NCBI GenBank assembly: GCA_017550535.1
Contig: JAFZOS010000025.1
Location: forward strand, 1-38,554
Direction: 5' to 3'
DNA: 38,554 bases
Source of the DNA: Lachnospiraceae bacterium
GTDB lineage: Bacteria > Bacillota > Clostridia > Lachnospirales > Lachnospiraceae
The notes under the pieces are model-generated. The model saw only the letters and a list, made by a program, of their open reading frames with translations, did no database searches and had not been told where the DNA came from. The first letter of the stretch is position 1, and the number at the start of each line of letters is the position of its first letter. Shown piece by piece: positions 9,222 through 37,762 of the stretch. Position numbers and translations under genes: made by a program.

Positions 9222-10925
9222 TTATGGTGTATATTCTTCAAATCCGTACACCACTTCTCCGTCTTCATTAAGATAAAGATACATCATGCGAGAATCATCT
9301 TCATCATATTTTTTAATGTATTTGCCCAATTCAAAAGCGTAGTTCAGCCTGCGGGCCCCGTCTTCGGGATACTGTATGTAAAAAGGAGTATCGCCTCCTT
9401 CGGCCAGGGTGTAATCCCTGAAGTTCTTATCCGGCATGACAACCTCATAATCATCGTCAAAATCAGCATTTTCCAGATGATATTTTTTTATGAGTTCGGT
9501 ATTGTCAATGCCTACCATTATGATCTCGCGTGCGGAAACCTTATCATTTTCAGGCGCTTTCATATCGCAGTTTATCATTGATACGGCACCCTTTCCTTCC
9601 GCGGCCGATGAGATGCCGTCGGTGCGCCCCGTAAACGTTAATGAGCCTATCCAGTAATTGGCAAAAGAATCATCGGGAAAAGTCTTGCTCGGATAGTGGT
9701 TATCCGCTTCGATTATATAGGCATATACATATGAACTGCCCTTATCGGTTCCCGGACTGAAAATGAAACGTCCGTTGCATACGGAGTTTCCGCCGGAACC
9801 GTCGGGATACCAGAATGCATAATCGGAATAACCGCCGCAGATGGATACATAATCATACTGCATAAAGTATGCATCATTCGGGGACGTAACATAAAGAACA
9901 TCGTCGCCGGGGGCATCAGGGCCGTATATATGTTTAAGGCAGTCCTTTACAAACTTTTCGGCACCGTTTGACATATCATACGTATCGGTAACGGGATAGC
10001 ATGTATTGATGACCTTAAAGCTTGAATCAGCGTTTTCATCCTCAAAGCGGTAGGTTCCGTCATCATTTAGTTTCGATACCGTGTTTTTAAGTCCCGGAAG
10101 CTTTACCCGGTTTACAAGAAAGGTTTTGTTCTTATCAGAGATATTGCTTGAAAAGAATGCATAGGAATCCTTTGTGTTGATGATCGCGGCAAACGGCAGC
10201 TCATCGGGTTTATCCTCGATATATTTGAATTCCTCACCGACATAGCTCCCGAAATGCACGGGAGACAGCCAGTTTAACTCCTCTTCGTTTATTGCGGAAG
10301 TGACCGCGCCGGCAGCCATGAAAACGAGGGAATCCTCTTCCCCGGTGAGTCCGTCCAGGCCGTAAGGCGTGGTATATGAATACAGTACTTCATCGATGAT
10401 CTCTTCGGTATCCGGTTCCTTATCAAAGACCATATCCTCAATGGTAAGGGAGTACATAAGCGGCCCCGCAGTCTTTACCTCTTTACTGAAATGTCCCGAA
10501 AAGTCACATAAGTATACCGTTCCGTTGCTGTGGCCCGGCCCTGTGGAACCCATGTCACTGTCGTGGTATGTACCGGAAAACGATCCGTCGGGTTTTACAT
10601 TAAGTTCCGTTCCCCAGCCGCCTGCGCCGCTTGCAAACTCAAATGACCAGTCCGCCATCTCGGCAAACACCGAGGAGGCATCAGCCTTGTACATATCTTC
10701 CGGGGAGGGTTCCGGTTCGTTTTCCTCTTTATCGGAGGGCTGTGAAGCTTCGTCCGCAGCCGGTTTATCCGCCTCATCCGGATCATTGACATTCTCGGTT
10801 TTTATTTTTCCCAGTTTATCCTTAACAGAATCACCCTGCTTATCCGCGCCCAAAGAGCAGCCTGCAAGCAAAGAAACCGAAAGGATAAGTATGAATAAGG
10901 TTGTAAACTGTCTTATATTCTTCAT
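9222..10925 (-). CDS. putative lipoprotein of unknown function
   Basis: The ATG at 10923-10925 gives 567 residues and has AAGGAG upstream; the longer frame adds only 12 residues. The N-terminus is a clear lipoprotein signal with lipobox LAGC and lipidation at Cys23. A charged Asp/Glu/Pro/Lys-rich linker (about residues 25-75) follows, typical of a spacer through the wall. The rest is a soluble, acidic and aromatic-rich region with no motif I recognise. Glycine/tyrosine-rich stretches suggest beta structure. It probably sits on the outer face of the membrane. A tandem 11-bp repeat overlaps its promoter. Confidence 0.75.
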   Translation of the reverse strand: MKNIRQFTTLFILILSVSLLAGCSLGADKQGDSVKDKLGKIKTENVNDPDEADKPAADEASQPSDKEENEPEPSPEDMYKADASSVFAEMADWSFEFASGAGGWGTELNVKPDGSFSGTYHDSDMGSTGPGHSNGTVYLCDFSGHFSKEVKTAGPLMYSLTIEDMVFDKEPDTEEIIDEVLYSYTTPYGLDGLTGEEDSLVFMAAGAVTSAINEEELNWLSPVHFGSYVGEEFKYIEDKPDELPFAAIINTKDSYAFFSSNISDKNKTFLVNRVKLPGLKNTVSKLNDDGTYRFEDENADSSFKVINTCYPVTDTYDMSNGAEKFVKDCLKHIYGPDAPGDDVLYVTSPNDAYFMQYDYVSICGGYSDYAFWYPDGSGGNSVCNGRFIFSPGTDKGSSYVYAYIIEADNHYPSKTFPDDSFANYWIGSLTFTGRTDGISSAAEGKGAVSMINCDMKAPENDKVSAREIIMVGIDNTELIKKYHLENADFDDDYEVVMPDKNFRDYTLAEGGDTPFYIQYPEDGARRLNYAFELGKYIKKYDEDDSRMMYLYLNEDGEVVYGFEEYTP

Positions 10926-10975
10926 GTTGATCATCTCCTTAATGAGGGCTGAGCCATCCAAAATACCGTAATTGT

Positions 10976-11294: not shown

Positions 11295-13910
11295 CTAACC
11301 CACACGGAAGCTGATAGCCTCATCGGGCGGTATGGGTTCGCTGAAGTAGAAGCCCTGTATCGTGTCGGCGCCGAAATCCTTAAGGCGGTCAAACTGCCGT
11401 TTTTCTTCCACGCCTTCAACGATCATCTTCTTGCCAAGGTCATGCACAAGGCGGATCACGTTATCGATGAAGCTGTCCTTACCCTCCACGAGGTAATTGT
11501 CCACAAGCGATTTATCAAGCTTGATGACATCAACCGGGATGTAGGTAAGGTAGCCGAGTGATGAATAACCGGTTCCGAAATCATCCATAAGAAGGCGGAT
11601 GCCAAGAGCCTTGAAACGGTCAAACAATGCATTGGCCTGTGCTGTTTTATCAAGGAATACGCCTTCCGTGATCTCAATCTCCAAAAGCTCCGGAGGGACA
11701 TCGTATTCCTTAAGCTTACTTTCAAGAAAATCGATATAACCGGAATCACTTAACTGGTTGCTCGAGAAATTGACGGAAACCGGACGCAGAGGCATTCCGT
11801 TCCTGCGCCATTCGGATATCTGCTTTATAACAAGCTCGGTTGTGATCCTTCCTATACGCCATATCTCACCGTTACGCTCGGCAACCGGTATGAACTTGGC
11901 CGGATACAGTCCGGGCTCCTTCATACGGACAAGCGCTTCGTAGCCGCTGGTCTGTTCGGTCTGAGAATCGATCTGCGGCTGATACAGGATAAAGAACCCG
12001 TCGCTGTCGATTGCTTCCTTTATCTTTTCGCCTATCCATTTTTCTTCCCTTGCTTTGTCCTTAAGTTCATCGGCATACAGGAATACCTTATTCTTGCCGC
12101 GCTGCTTGGCTTCATATACGGCTGCCTCGGCATTAAGGATGTTTTCCTCCGCATCCGCTATCCCGTCAGGGAGTGATATGCCGATGCTTACATTCATCGT
12201 CAGGTGATTATGCCCGATGCGCATGGGCTCGATAAATGCCCTTTGTATCTCATGTATGATCCTGCTGTCGGGATCCGCACTTATCCCCGGGATAAGGAAC
12301 AGGAACACATCTCCGCCGTAACGTACGATGCGGACGCCCTTTGAGCCGATGGTATCCCTTAAGCGCTTTGAGAGGATCTTTAAAAAGCCGTCGGCAGTGG
12401 CATGGCCGTAAGTCGCATTGATGCTCTTAAAGCCTCCGATATCTGCGATCACAACTGAAAACAGATCATACTCATCCATTATATCCTTAAGGAGAGAAAC
12501 GGCGCTCCTGCGGTTCCATAATTCAAGAGCCTCGTCATGGGTCGCCTGATATAGCAGCTGTTCCTTTTCATCCTCGACTTCGCGCTTTAAGTAGTAAACG
12601 CAGTTATCCCTGTGATTGAATCCGTTATGGATAGCGCATGCCATCTCGTAACAGGATTCGTAGCCGCAGGAGGAGCAGTTTATCTTGCGTGATTCTTCCG
12701 TGTCCTTACGCATGGAACGGTAGATCTGCTCAAGCTCTTCGCCCGTGGGGATGCTGTATTTACAGTTCTCGGAAAAGTCGGTATATTCCCTCAGATAATC
12801 GGAAAGCTCAAGATCCTCAAACTGTTTGTTCAGACGATCCAAACGTTCCGAAGGTTTTAAGTTCCTTGCCCAGGCACCGTCTTCATCCTTCTTTACGCTT
12901 TCACGTATGGACAAAAGGTTTAAAAGAGCACGGTCGCCCTCGGAATACAGAGGATCCACGGCCGTTCCGCAGATACAGCCGTTCTCACAGTTTAAGGCAT
13001 CATAAAGAAGGAACGGATTGTTACCTGATTCTATCGTATTTGCATTCTCGCGAAGATAATGATAAAGGCGCTTTTCGCCGCCTATCTCACGGATGAAGGC
13101 TTCCTCGCCCACGAGCCACTTTACGTTTTCCATAAGGCCGCCCGGAGTCGGATAGAATGAGCCGAGGCCGTATTCGATCTCGTCCGTTACGGGTTCCGCA
13201 TCAAGCCCGTGAGAACGAACGTATTTCATAAGATGTGAAAAGGTTACGTTATAATGGACATGACCCTGATTCTTCGGGTCATCTATCTCGAGTTTTTTGG
13301 CGATACAGGGACTTATAAAGGCGAAACGGTCGGTCACGCCCATTTCCTTCCTTGCATAGATAGCCGCGCACATTAAGGGGCTTTGTACCGGGAAAAGCTT
13401 TTTGATAAGCTCGGGATGGTATTTTTCAATATAAGCAACGACGGCGGGACAGGGCTGTGAGATCCCGCCCTTAAAACCGTATTGCTTAATGTAGTTGATA
13501 TAGCCCCATGTCGTAATATCGGCGCCGAATGCGACGTTGATCATACGGTTAACGCCAAGCTTTTTGAGCGCGCCAAGCACCCGACCGTATTCGTCGGGGT
13601 AGTTTGCCTTAAAGGCGGGTGCGATGAGGACGGAAATCTTCACGCCCTTTTCAAGGTCGTTAAAGAAAGCCTCGGTGTCGTCCATGAACTCCCTTGCGTT
13701 GTGTTCACAGGCATCAAAACAGGCTCCGCAGGCAATACATCTGGCCGGATCCACCACGATCCTTGAATTGCCGTCATCATCAGCTTCGGTTGATACGCAT
13801 GCGCCGACACAGCTGCAGGTGGCTATGCATTTATTGCACCCTACACAGTTTTCGTTTGTATATACAAGGCCGTTGTTTATATCGGCCATCGGTTGATTCT
13901 CAGTGTTCAT
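11295..13910 (-). CDS. ferredoxin / [FeFe]-hydrogenase-like / FeS / GGDEF-like / EAL fusion
   Basis: The ATG at 13908-13910 (871 residues) is chosen over a GTG at 13937 that lacks a ribosome site. Domains in order: two CxxCxxCxxxC ferredoxin clusters (residues 22-68); an H-cluster domain with QPCP (Cys154), SPCIAKK (Cys202) and NCENGCICG (Cys308, Cys312), the four ligands of an [FeFe]-hydrogenase active site; a CSSCGYESC FeS domain (412-437); a GGDEF-like domain whose signature reads GGDVF (532-536); and an EAL domain. The EAL part keeps EALVR, the Asn in NFSSNQ, EITE, DDFGTG, IKLD, EGVEE and QGF, so c-di-GMP phosphodiesterase activity is likely. The second Cys of the canonical TSCCP motif, which carries protons, is Pro here. 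That favours a sensory rather than catalytic H-domain. Cytosolic, with no membrane segment. Confidence 0.85.
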   Translation of the reverse strand: MNTENQPMADINNGLVYTNENCVGCNKCIATCSCVGACVSTEADDDGNSRIVVDPARCIACGACFDACEHNAREFMDDTEAFFNDLEKGVKISVLIAPAFKANYPDEYGRVLGALKKLGVNRMINVAFGADITTWGYINYIKQYGFKGGISQPCPAVVAYIEKYHPELIKKLFPVQSPLMCAAIYARKEMGVTDRFAFISPCIAKKLEIDDPKNQGHVHYNVTFSHLMKYVRSHGLDAEPVTDEIEYGLGSFYPTPGGLMENVKWLVGEEAFIREIGGEKRLYHYLRENANTIESGNNPFLLYDALNCENGCICGTAVDPLYSEGDRALLNLLSIRESVKKDEDGAWARNLKPSERLDRLNKQFEDLELSDYLREYTDFSENCKYSIPTGEELEQIYRSMRKDTEESRKINCSSCGYESCYEMACAIHNGFNHRDNCVYYLKREVEDEKEQLLYQATHDEALELWNRRSAVSLLKDIMDEYDLFSVVIADIGGFKSINATYGHATADGFLKILSKRLRDTIGSKGVRIVRYGGDVFLFLIPGISADPDSRIIHEIQRAFIEPMRIGHNHLTMNVSIGISLPDGIADAEENILNAEAAVYEAKQRGKNKVFLYADELKDKAREEKWIGEKIKEAIDSDGFFILYQPQIDSQTEQTSGYEALVRMKEPGLYPAKFIPVAERNGEIWRIGRITTELVIKQISEWRRNGMPLRPVSVNFSSNQLSDSGYIDFLESKLKEYDVPPELLEIEITEGVFLDKTAQANALFDRFKALGIRLLMDDFGTGYSSLGYLTYIPVDVIKLDKSLVDNYLVEGKDSFIDNVIRLVHDLGKKMIVEGVEEKRQFDRLKDFGADTIQGFYFSEPIPPDEAISFRVG

Positions 13911-14031
13911 AAAGCACCCTGATGAGTAAAATTTCACAAATATACTATATCATAACCGCACTTCTTTAGCAATTATTACAAAGGCAGCTGCGGGGTTAAA
14001 ACCTGCCAAAAATCATCCCGGTTTATTGTGC

Positions 14032-21262: not shown

Positions 21263-22345
21263 TTATACGAATGTTTCTATATACACATCCGGTTCCTTTG
21301 ACAGATCGATGAACCTGTTGCGGCACTGTACCATAGGCCGGGACAGTGCATTCTTATTCATGAACACCACTTCGCCTTCCATTCCGTTGTTTAACCTTAC
21401 GCGGTTCTTGATATAAGTCGAAGCTATGTGCTCAAGGAATACCATGATGAACTTGCTGTCATATTTATTGAGGCCGTCGGTCTCAAAGATGCCTATTACC
21501 TTGAACGGACACAGGGGACCGCGGTATACGCGGGCTGCGGTCATGGCATCGTAAACATCCGCTATCGCTACGACCTTGGCGTATTTGTTTATCTTATCAC
21601 CGGTAAGCCCTAAGGGATATCCGGTTCCGTCGCACCTTTCGTGATGCATCAGTGCGCTTTCCTTTATATCGTTGTTTATATTTTTGTAGCCCTTTAATAT
21701 GTTGTAACCCTGGAGGGTGTGAGTCTTAATGATGTTGTATTCATCGGCGGTAAGCTTGTCCGGCTTACGTATGATGTTATCGGGGATGGCGAGCTTGCCT
21801 ATGTCGTGGAGAAGTCCGCACAGTGTAAGCTTGTCCACTTCCGAAGGCGGGAGCTTGAGCCACTTTGCAAATACAGTGCAGATAAGGCTTACGTTGATAC
21901 AATGCGCATAGGTAAGGTCATCATACTGACGCATGTTATGGAGCATATCAAAAATGGAGATCGTGGTCGTCTGATTGGCCATGAGGTTTGATATGTTGCT
22001 GCACAGCTCCTCGGTATTGATGGGAGCCCGGTCGTCAACTATCGAGCGCAGGTTCTTTTTGAAATTTTCGGTTGTGCGCAGGAAACTCTGCTCAAACTCC
22101 TTGAATTCCTTGCTGGCCTTGATGCGCTGTGAGTACGAAGGCAGATCAAACTGATTGAGGTCCGGCGCCTGAGGAAGCGCGTCGTCATTGATACGTACCG
22201 CAAGAACGGAATAGAACTCAAGACGGGTAATTATCTTATCCGTCAGTTCCGTATTGTTTGGAACGATCATCTGATTATTATAAGAATAAACATCCTCGGC
22301 CGTTATCATGCCGGGAACGAGTTCCGATGTCCTTACACGTTTCAT
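21263..22345 (-). CDS. HD-GYP domain protein, likely c-di-GMP phosphodiesterase
   Basis: A 360-residue cytosolic protein. Residues 1-120 are an uncharacterised, partly helical N-terminal region. The HD-GYP domain (about 130-310) contains HDIGK at 180-184 and HERCDGTGYP at 235-244, matching the canonical signature of active enzymes that degrade c-di-GMP. The C-terminus (about 310-360) looks like a small beta domain. It has its own well-formed promoter, divergent from that of metK, and a 12-bp palindrome in its leader. Confidence 0.88.
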   Translation of the reverse strand: MKRVRTSELVPGMITAEDVYSYNNQMIVPNNTELTDKIITRLEFYSVLAVRINDDALPQAPDLNQFDLPSYSQRIKASKEFKEFEQSFLRTTENFKKNLRSIVDDRAPINTEELCSNISNLMANQTTTISIFDMLHNMRQYDDLTYAHCINVSLICTVFAKWLKLPPSEVDKLTLCGLLHDIGKLAIPDNIIRKPDKLTADEYNIIKTHTLQGYNILKGYKNINNDIKESALMHHERCDGTGYPLGLTGDKINKYAKVVAIADVYDAMTAARVYRGPLCPFKVIGIFETDGLNKYDSKFIMVFLEHIASTYIKNRVRLNNGMEGEVVFMNKNALSRPMVQCRNRFIDLSKEPDVYIETFV

Positions 22346-22494: not shown

Positions 22495-22590
22495 CTCTTA
22501 TTCAGAGTGGTGGAGATACATAGGATCTGTGAAGCCACGGCAACCCCGTAAGGAAGGTGCCAACCTGAGCGAGTAATCGAGCAATAAGAG
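22495..22590 (+). ncRNA. SAM-I (S-box) riboswitch aptamer
   Basis: Shows the conserved S-box order: P1 strand CTCTTATT (22495-22502), AGAGTGGTGGAG, GTGAAGCCACGGCAACC, AAGGTGCCAACCTGAGC and the closing P1 strand AATAAGAG (22583-22590). With SAM bound, P1 holds AATAAGAG and lets the terminator at 22618-22645 form. Without SAM, AATAAGAGG (22583-22591) can pair with CCGCTTATT (22618-22626) as antiterminator, one mismatch. This turns metK off when SAM is plentiful. Confidence 0.93.
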
Positions 22591-22706: not shown

Positions 22707-23888
22707 ATGGAAAAGTATTTATTCACTTCCGAATCGGTAACCGAAGGCCATCCCGACAAGGTGTGCGACGCTATCTCGGATGCGATCCTGGATGCTTGCA
22801 TGGAACAGGATCCGATGAGCCGCGTTGCCTGTGAAACCGCTTGCTGCACGGGCTTTGTGCTTATTACCGGTGAGATAACCACCAATGCTTACGTTGATAT
22901 GCAGAAGGTAGTCCGCGATACGGTAAAGGAGATCGGTTACACGAAGTCGGAATACGGCTTCGACGGCAATACATGTGCGGTGCTCGTTGCAATTGATGAA
23001 CAGTCAAGCGATATCGCGATGGGTGTTGACAAGGCACTTGAAGCTAAGGAAGGTTCATTAACGGATGACCTTGATACAGGTGCCGGCGATCAGGGTATGA
23101 TGTTCGGCTTTGCTACAAACGAGACCGACGAATACATGCCTTATCCCATTTCACTTGCGCACAAGATCGCAAGGAAGCTTACCGAGGTCCGCAAGGACGG
23201 AACACTCAAATACTTAAGGCCCGACGGTAAGAGTCAGGTATCCGTTGAATATGACGAGAACGGAAAGCCCTTAAGGCTCGAGGCTGTAGTGCTTTCGACC
23301 CAGCATGATGATGATGTTACCCAGGAGCAGATCCATGCGGATATCAAAAAGTACGTATTCGATCCCGTACTTCCGAAGGAACTCATAGATGACAACACGA
23401 AGTTCTTCATCAATCCCACGGGACGTTTCGTTATCGGAGGACCTCACGGTGATGCGGGTCTTACCGGACGTAAGATAATCGTTGATACCTACGGCGGATA
23501 CGCACGTCACGGCGGCGGTGCATTCTCAGGTAAGGACTGCACCAAGGTTGACCGCAGTGCCGCATATGCCGCAAGGTACGTTGCCAAGAACATCGTTGCA
23601 GCGGGACTTGCCGACAAGTGCGAGATCCAGCTTTCATATGCGATCGGTGTTGCACAGCCCACATCGATAATGATCGACACCTTCGGTACCGGCAAGTTAA
23701 GCGATGAAAAGCTGGTATCCATAGTACGTGAGAACTTCGACCTTCGTCCGGCAGGCATCATAAAGATGCTTAACTTACGCCGCCCGATCTACAAGCAGAC
23801 GGCAGCCTACGGACATTTCGGCCGTAACGACCTTGACCTTCCCTGGGAGGCACTTGATAAAGTAGATGCATTAAAGAAGTACCTGTAA
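22707..23888 (+). CDS. metK: S-adenosylmethionine synthetase
   Basis: A 393-residue cytosolic enzyme making SAM from methionine and ATP. Motifs include EGHPDK at the N-terminus, [12 protein letters not shown] (ATP site) and the loop [12 protein letters not shown] followed by GGGAFSGKD. Full normal length. The start has AAGAAAGGAG upstream. Expression is under the SAM-I riboswitch, so the product represses its own synthesis. A GGGGACGG-core palindrome follows 30 bp after the stop and probably helps end the transcript before dnaE. Confidence 0.97.
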
Positions 23889-35219: not shown

Positions 35220-35717
35220 ATGGAGATGGAGAAGAAAAATATCTTAACCTATGAGGGGCTTAAGAAGCTCGAGGATGAGCTTCATGATCTTAAGGTTGTA
35301 AGGAGGGCCGAGGTTGCCCAGAAAATAAAGGAGGCACGCGAGCAGGGCGACCTGTCCGAGAATGCCGAGTACGATGCAGCCAAGGATGAGCAGCGTGATA
35401 TCGAGACCCGCATCGAGGAGATCGAGAAGATCCTTAAAAATGCAGAGGTGGTACTTGACGAGGAAGTTGATACGGGCAAGATCAGCATCGGCTGCAAGGT
35501 TAAGATCAGGGATATGGAATTTAAGGAAGACATGGAATATAAGATCGTCGGCTCGACCGAGGCCGATTCGCTGGGCGGCAAGATAAGTAACGAATCACCG
35601 GTCGGAAAGGCACTCATCGGTGCCAAGAAGGGCCAGACGGTTTCGGTTGAAACTCAGGCGGGAGTGCTTAAGTACAAGGTATTACAGATAATCCGCCCGG
35701 GTGATAAAGATTATTAG
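35220..35717 (+). CDS. greA: transcription elongation factor GreA
   Basis: A 165-residue factor that rescues backtracked RNA polymerase by stimulating transcript cleavage. The N-terminal coiled-coil hairpin has the acidic tip GDLSENAEYDAAK. The C-terminal FKBP-like domain ends with ISNESPVGKALIGAKKG. Full length. AGAGG lies eight bases upstream. lysS follows, separated by a 109-bp linker with a hairpin. Confidence 0.96.
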   Translation: MEMEKKNILTYEGLKKLEDELHDLKVVRRAEVAQKIKEAREQGDLSENAEYDAAKDEQRDIETRIEEIEKILKNAEVVLDEEVDTGKISIGCKVKIRDMEFKEDMEYKIVGSTEADSLGGKISNESPVGKALIGAKKGQTVSVETQAGVLKYKVLQIIRPGDKDY

Positions 35718-35721
35718 AGGA

Positions 35722-35757
35722 AGAGCCATTACGCGGAGCGTAATTCAGGATGGCTCT
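35722..35757 (+). promoter_or_regulatory. hairpin in the greA-lysS linker
   Basis: ATTACGC (35728-35734) pairs with GCGTAAT (35738-35744), and AGAGCC (35722-35727) with GGCTCT (35752-35757), leaving a bulge. No T-run follows. It may affect read-through or mRNA processing between the two genes. No T-box signature is seen. Confidence 0.5.
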
Positions 35758-35826
35758 GACGAAAGGCCGCTGAACGAATGTGAGGGGGCATCACCCGACA
35801 TTCTGAGAAAAATTAGAGGATATGCA

Positions 35827-37582: not shown

Positions 37583-37762
37583 ATGTGCGATGTTCAGAAA
37601 TATAATGATATATATAATGATATTAAGAAGCTTACGAAGGATGATACAACCCAACTGATCTTGGAAGCATCAACGGAAGAAGAGAAGGATTTCTATGCTA
37701 TGGTAGGTGATTTCTTCTTTCAGAAAAAACAGGAAGAATGTATTGCGAGGAATGTATTTTAA
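37583..37762 (+). CDS. 59-residue protein, candidate antitoxin
   Basis: A short frame: ATG at 37583 with GGAGG eight bases upstream, 59 codons, stop TAA at 37760-37762. The product begins MCDVQKYNDIYNDIKKLTKD and is acidic and helical, with a C-terminal FFFQKKQEECIARNVF. Its stop overlaps the start of the kinase gene (TAATG), a strict coupling typical of toxin-antitoxin pairs, where the smaller upstream protein usually neutralises the toxin. I recognise no family; an antitoxin role is inferred from position only. Confidence 0.7.
   Translation: MCDVQKYNDIYNDIKKLTKDDTTQLILEASTEEEKDFYAMVGDFFFQKKQEECIARNVF

Follow-up and report, generated by a model that had tools for sequence, protein, structure and literature searches.

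A single gene on the minus strand of the window (the whole stretch of 38,554 nucleotides analysed here, from a Lachnospiraceae bacterium) encodes one polypeptide in which a hydrogenase-like sensory module is followed directly by a GGDEF-EAL tandem. Judged by its sequence, the input module shows the active-site signature that has been published for group D sensory [FeFe]-hydrogenases (HydS), and alignments of its relatives show the same HydS-like module attached at a single junction to outputs of the chemoreceptor, kinase or EAL type. We believe nearly as much as we doubt that the fusion protein is a c-di-GMP phosphodiesterase built on a HydS scaffold and gated by the redox state of its iron-sulfur clusters. 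Group D HydS have no known output, and since the fusion joins such a module covalently to an output whose activity is accessible to test-tube assays, the question of signalling by HydS becomes directly testable. Signal transfer by any sensory [FeFe]-hydrogenase is untested or disputed (PMC13104023), and sensory hydrogenases of the gut are in effect called uncharacterised (PMC12578642). A search of the open-licence literature found no paper on an H-domain/EAL fusion, albeit phrase matching may miss the bracketed "[FeFe]".

Domain architecture and active sites

The fusion gene can be read from two start codons (Table 1), of which the ATG at 13910 is the end coordinate given in the earlier note; Pfam positions refer to the 880-residue form and residue numbers to the 871-residue form. 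The opposite, plus-strand frame over the gene contains many stops. Pfam matches Fe_hyd_lg_C at 101–324 (E 2.5e-27, 96.5 bits, cut-off 22.1), GGDEF at 465–617 (E 4.1e-24), EAL at 638–868 (E 8.6e-62) and, above cut-off, Fer4 at 60–82 (25.5 bits). Fer4_7 at 30–81 stays below its cut-off (24.3 bits versus 27), as does, slightly, the FeS family PF04060 at 418–448 (21.8 bits versus 23), the latter with an exact Cx2Cx4Cx16C motif formed by C412, C415, C420 and C437; in the paralogue L003 PF04060 passes with 33.6 bits. The H-cluster cysteines are encoded at 13449–13451 (C154), 13305–13307 (C202), 12987–12989 (C308) and 12975–12977 (C312). Profiles and residues agree with the earlier reading of two ferredoxin clusters, four H-cluster cysteines, an FeS domain, a GGDEF-like domain and a complete EAL site in a single chain. 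Moreover, all 16 cluster cysteines, including the eight of the F-domain, are invariant in an alignment of 14 diverse modules, and three orthologues (L055, L075, L076) have the same architecture at 77–79% identity across 857–870 residues, so that the architecture is more than a product of chance.

Table 1. Positions of the fusion gene and its domains in the window
Feature	Positions	Strand	Basis or remark
Fusion gene	11295..13937	minus	880 aa from GTG at 13937, or 871 aa from ATG at 13910
Two-cluster ferredoxin (F) domain	13674..13880	minus	Fer4 and Fer4_7 matches; 8 Cys
H-domain (Fe_hyd_lg_C)	12966..13637	minus	C154, C202, C308, C312 (871-aa numbering)
C-terminal FeS domain	12594..12686	minus	PF04060 match below cut-off; exact Cx2Cx4Cx16C
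Linker, last FeS Cys to GGDEF domain	12546..12599	minus	predicted to be helical
Degenerate GGDEF domain (GGDVF)	12087..12545	minus	PF00990, 85.6 bits; motif
EAL phosphodiesterase domain	11334..12026	minus	PF00563, 209 bits; catalytic set complete

All conserved catalytic residues of the EAL domain are present (E658, N714, E746, D776, D777, K797, E832 and Q852); they are invariant among 22 aligned proteins, and none of the 40 EAL-type rows has lost a catalytic position. An exact GGDEF motif, in contrast, occurs in just 7 of these 40 rows, two of the seven being identical, which suggests that selection acts on hydrolysis. In the fusion protein the GG(D/E)EF motif of diguanylate cyclases is replaced by GGDVF, and the earlier wording "GGDEF-like" was well chosen. 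LapD and FimX are degenerate GGDEF-EAL tandems that act as c-di-GMP receptors, and models of the FimX and LapD type are among the matches to the fusion protein; that its tandem is likewise a non-enzymatic receptor, or that the protein is a diguanylate cyclase, is nevertheless very improbable given the intact EAL positions, the altered cyclase motif and the fact that the closest solved match to the full tandem, 5m3c, is an active-type GGDEF-EAL protein. DosP and other sensor-GGDEF-EAL phosphodiesterases likewise combine a sensor, a degenerate or intact GGDEF and an active-type EAL domain in one chain, although the sensor of DosP is a haem-PAS domain and that of the fusion protein an H-domain module.

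For the H-domain pocket, a profile of the 14 modules was aligned, in its F- and H-domain part, to hydrogenases of solved structure; positions follow CpI numbering, taken from general knowledge as well as from PMC8163306. Pro153 occupies the proton-relay position (C299 of CpI), with Ser at M353 and Leu at M497. According to PMC8163306, the group D (M2e) protein TamHydS of Thermoanaerobacter mathranii has Ser at M353, Leu at M497 and a C-terminal Cx2Cx4Cx16C, and loss of C299 is a property of subclasses M2e and M2f. The fusion protein has the group D layout of two N-terminal [4Fe-4S] motifs, H-domain and C-terminal Cx2Cx4Cx16C, as well as the group D pocket (Ser/Thr for M353, Leu at M497, C299 not conserved), and Pfam finds in it no PAS domain, which in group C (M2f) follows the FeS domain. 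The proton-relay cysteine of TSCCP is proline, as the earlier note had said, but since its loss is published for M2e and M2f as a whole the proline places the module and is no proof of sensing. As would be anticipated for a sensory type, the NCBIfam hydrogenase models fall far short of their cut-offs, B1 scoring 137 of 450 bits and A scoring 83 of 406.

TamHydS is thus the closest described counterpart in layout and pocket: it has the same two [4Fe-4S] sites, H-domain and Cx2Cx4Cx16C without PAS, its operon also being described without PAS (PMC8163306), and it shares the pocket residues, C299 being Pro in the fusion protein. It has no output domain, whereas in the fusion protein GGDEF-EAL follows the module directly. 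TmHydS of Thermotoga maritima (group C, M2f), for which a signalling role is proposed (PMC13104023), has F-domain, H-domain and C-terminal FeS domain in common with the fusion protein, but contains PAS, Ser at M497 and Gly at M353 (PMC8163306), in contrast to the fusion protein without a PAS match. Group C sensors with PAS and phosphatase output are reportedly abundant in rumen data (PMC6776011); the group C hydrogenase of Ruminococcus albus is likewise a sensory H-domain protein of a rumen Firmicute, albeit with a separate phosphatase output in addition to PAS (PMC6776011), whereas the fusion protein is predicted to hydrolyse c-di-GMP in the same chain.

Relatives of the module and their outputs

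How common is such a fusion? Scanning a single genome for each species yielded at least 590 stretches, 576 of those listed being relatives, and the best 80 were kept. Among these best 80 of at least 576 relatives, local BLAST assigned 42 chemoreceptor (MCP), 25 EAL and 12 kinase outputs, with one protein cut by a contig end; Pfam confirmed the output type in five (L003, L071, L075, L078, L122). The fusion is hence a common architecture and not a singular one, EAL being one of several outputs. By record title the best 80 are mainly Lachnospiraceae from ruminant guts, and the few other titles (e.g. Treponema, Mucispirillum) given to MAGs may reflect binning error. The genome of the window itself encodes three modules: the fusion protein with EAL, L003 (643 residues) ending in an MCP signalling domain, and L009 (1929 residues) with the module between two histidine kinase/receiver parts plus a dCache domain. 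At L009:5448-11234 dCache, two HisKA/HATPase/receiver sets, an Hpt match and the ferredoxin-H-FeS module in mid-protein are recognised.

The junction can be followed by its spacing. The FeS motif spans 26 residues in 127 of 127 rows with an FeS match, and the length of the linker is constant within each output class, that to the kinase motif measuring 32 residues in 18 of 22 rows. From the last FeS cysteine to GGDEF, the EAL rows have 20 residues in 20 of 40 and 14 residues in 11 of 40, the other nine having other spacings or none found by pattern. A tree of 126 rows needs three changes of the EAL label, two of them forced by starred branches. When 11 distant, long-branched rows were removed, the 38 close EAL rows formed one side of a branch in the resulting 115-row tree (support 60, unstarred); repeated independent gain of EAL among close relatives was dropped, as these rows already stand together.

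A second, distant H-domain/GGDEF/EAL family is represented by L071:3056-5629 and L072:3686-6283, with GAGTF in place of GGDEF. Its domain order is the same at 32–33% identity, the equivalent of Lys358 is lost, and the family may be a separate one. A further variant, L073:6154-8484 (G040 contig C37), lies some 2.3 kb from HydG and combines the H-domain module with a GGDEF domain whose motif (GGEEF) looks intact; Pfam finds no GAF domain in it.

Maturases and the nature of the signal

How could such a protein work? The fusion protein would be a soluble one-component signalling enzyme, with the ferredoxin clusters, H-domain and Cx2Cx4Cx16C domain of the HydS-like module as input and the GGDEF-EAL tandem as output, a short helical linker passing the signal onward. 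The EAL domain would hydrolyse c-di-GMP, and the degenerate GGDEF domain probably contributes to allostery or dimerisation. Most safely, the module may be taken to gate EAL via the FeS domain and the helical linker, the state of the iron-sulfur centres presumably setting the activity. When TamHydS is exposed to H2 its C-terminal cluster is not reduced (PMC13104023), so that signal flow through this cluster cannot be taken for granted and transmission from the H-domain by conformational change is no less likely than by electron relay. The signal could be the redox state of low-potential carriers, i.e. reduced ferredoxin. Low c-di-GMP would favour motility, and through the paralogues chemotaxis and phosphorelay may receive the same signal; the electron balance of fermenting gut bacteria would then be linked to all three, c-di-GMP, chemotaxis and phosphorelay.

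What the H-domain holds depends on the maturases. In the genome of the window (98% complete, 103 contigs) the best matches to all three stay below cut-off: HydG 18.5 bits (cut-off 312), HydF 94 bits (325.6; GTPase part only) and HydE 24.2 bits (254.6), although with 103 contigs this absence is not final. Since no maturases were found, the H-domain might carry a [4Fe-4S] cluster without the diiron subsite. Of 61 relatives, own genome counted, 33 have HydG above cut-off and 33 HydF. The genus is represented by 37 genomes: HydG reaches its cut-off in 21 of them and HydF in 19, while G023 and G030 additionally contain HydF fragments; none has HydF without HydG, a combination seen at order level in G043 and G052, where HydG is not above cut-off, and 16 have neither. 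The sensor (score over 500 bits) is present in 14 of these 16 and in 18 of the 21 with HydG (Fisher p = 1), and this equal retention leaves H2 as the signal unsupported so far. Nine genus genomes are listed as at least 97% complete; seven of them, some in only about 20 contigs, have neither HydG nor HydF, and five of these seven keep the sensor. Considering 50 loci of the best 80, all EAL types included, HydG was found in 11 genomes, HydF in 14 and neither in 36, their completeness not being given. HydE, sought in 19 chosen genomes, is above cut-off in four of four with HydG and in none of 15 without, one of which (G054) gives a 109-bit match below cut-off. AB2028, not labelled as a MAG in its record title, encodes the sensor but none of HydG, HydF and HydE, and G096 and G108 have no PF02906 protein other than the sensor.

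The pocket was compared in the 86 of 126 tree rows with known maturase status. The four H-cluster cysteines, Pro 299, Ser 353, Lys 358 and Leu 497 are identical in the 33 rows with and the 53 rows without maturases; one row without has Tyr in place of a ferredoxin cysteine. A relaxed pocket in maturase-less genomes was rejected, the mean column entropy of pocket and cysteines being 0.156 with and 0.124 without maturases. On the sensor tree, rows of like maturase status group together to some degree (20 changes versus a shuffled mean near 26.6), and the two sets are thus not fully independent. A few species with hydrogenases but without maturases were already noted in 2011 (PMC3226654), so that the pattern itself is not new.

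A true H2 sensor, in which a complete H-cluster is built by missed HydEFG or by another route and H2 binding switches EAL, is a serious possibility that we nonetheless rather doubt. Every H-cluster cysteine and Lys358 are conserved, HydG is above cut-off in more than half of the genus genomes, and HydS of groups C and D form H-clusters (PMC8163306, PMC6984386); against it stand the sub-cut-off maturases of the own genome, in which the fusion gene differs from TamHydS, the nearly complete genus genomes that keep the sensor without HydG and HydF, and AB2028. In favour of an H2 sensor, the own genome also contains a HydA above the cut-off for NADH-dependent [FeFe] hydrogenase A6 (827 bits versus 765). 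An A6-type HydA should need HydEFG, hence maturases of this genome may have been missed, which weakens the diiron-free reading. The conserved Lys358 and CO/CN-ligand pocket would also not obviously be needed without diiron. Of the coupling of H2 or redox state to c-di-GMP breakdown proposed in the earlier note, the redox part is plausible, and the H2 part, though possible, so far lacks support since the genes for building the H-cluster were not found above cut-off in the genome.

More general, and regarded with somewhat more doubt than the redox-gated phosphodiesterase, is the notion that diiron-free H-domains serve gut Lachnospiraceae as a plug-in redox module, attached at one junction to EAL, chemoreceptor or kinase outputs in genomes unable to make the H-cluster. 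If the module does work without HydEFG, some of the "sensory hydrogenases" counted in rumen and gut data would be sensors of redox state and not of H2. Sensing of O2, NO or oxidative damage, with the phosphodiesterase switched by cluster loss instead of reduction, seems unlikely: FeS proteins are known as O2 and NO sensors (PMC13104023) and the hosts are gut anaerobes judging from record titles, but 16 cluster cysteines and an H-domain far exceed the needs of a simple damage sensor, and the neighbourhood contains no pointer to oxidative stress.

Other hydrogenases of these genomes are also of note. At least one PF02906 protein occurs in all 61 relatives and all 45 named genomes searched. The A6-type HydA lies in L175:118-4279 (G000 contig C5, own genome), where NuoE-like, NuoF-like and HydA genes stand in a row at the contig start, the operon beginning 118 bases from the contig end. 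G057, a single contig, encodes a HydA with TSCCP, MPC and CPGGC, HydG and HydF both being below cut-off. Either maturases have been overlooked, or hydrogenase-like proteins function without them in many genomes. An altered HydA in maturase-less genomes was rejected, as the motifs are alike in both sets of the 21 loci read; in two of these (L158, L165) the motif pattern did not show L1.

Gene neighbourhood

The fusion gene appears to be monocistronic. No gene between 4900 and 18200 of the window is common to the flanks of five orthologue loci, these flanks being short (4.4–11.5 kb). A promoter scan gave TTGCTA-17-TATAGT at 13972–13944, but with five such sites found versus 5.4 expected it is no evidence of a promoter. 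Downstream of the fusion gene, 9222–10961 (minus) encodes a protein of 579 residues that begins like a lipoprotein and matches no Pfam family. An HD_5 protein with HDIGK and HHERCDGTGYP, encoded at 21263–22345 (minus), is a candidate c-di-GMP phosphodiesterase of the HD-GYP type. On the plus strand, a SAM riboswitch at 22495–22590 precedes an S-adenosylmethionine synthetase gene at 22707, a GA-cis RNA at 35715–35799 lies between a greA-like and a lysyl-type tRNA synthetase gene, and the small P-loop protein encoded at 37738–38319 matches the zeta-toxin family of Pfam.
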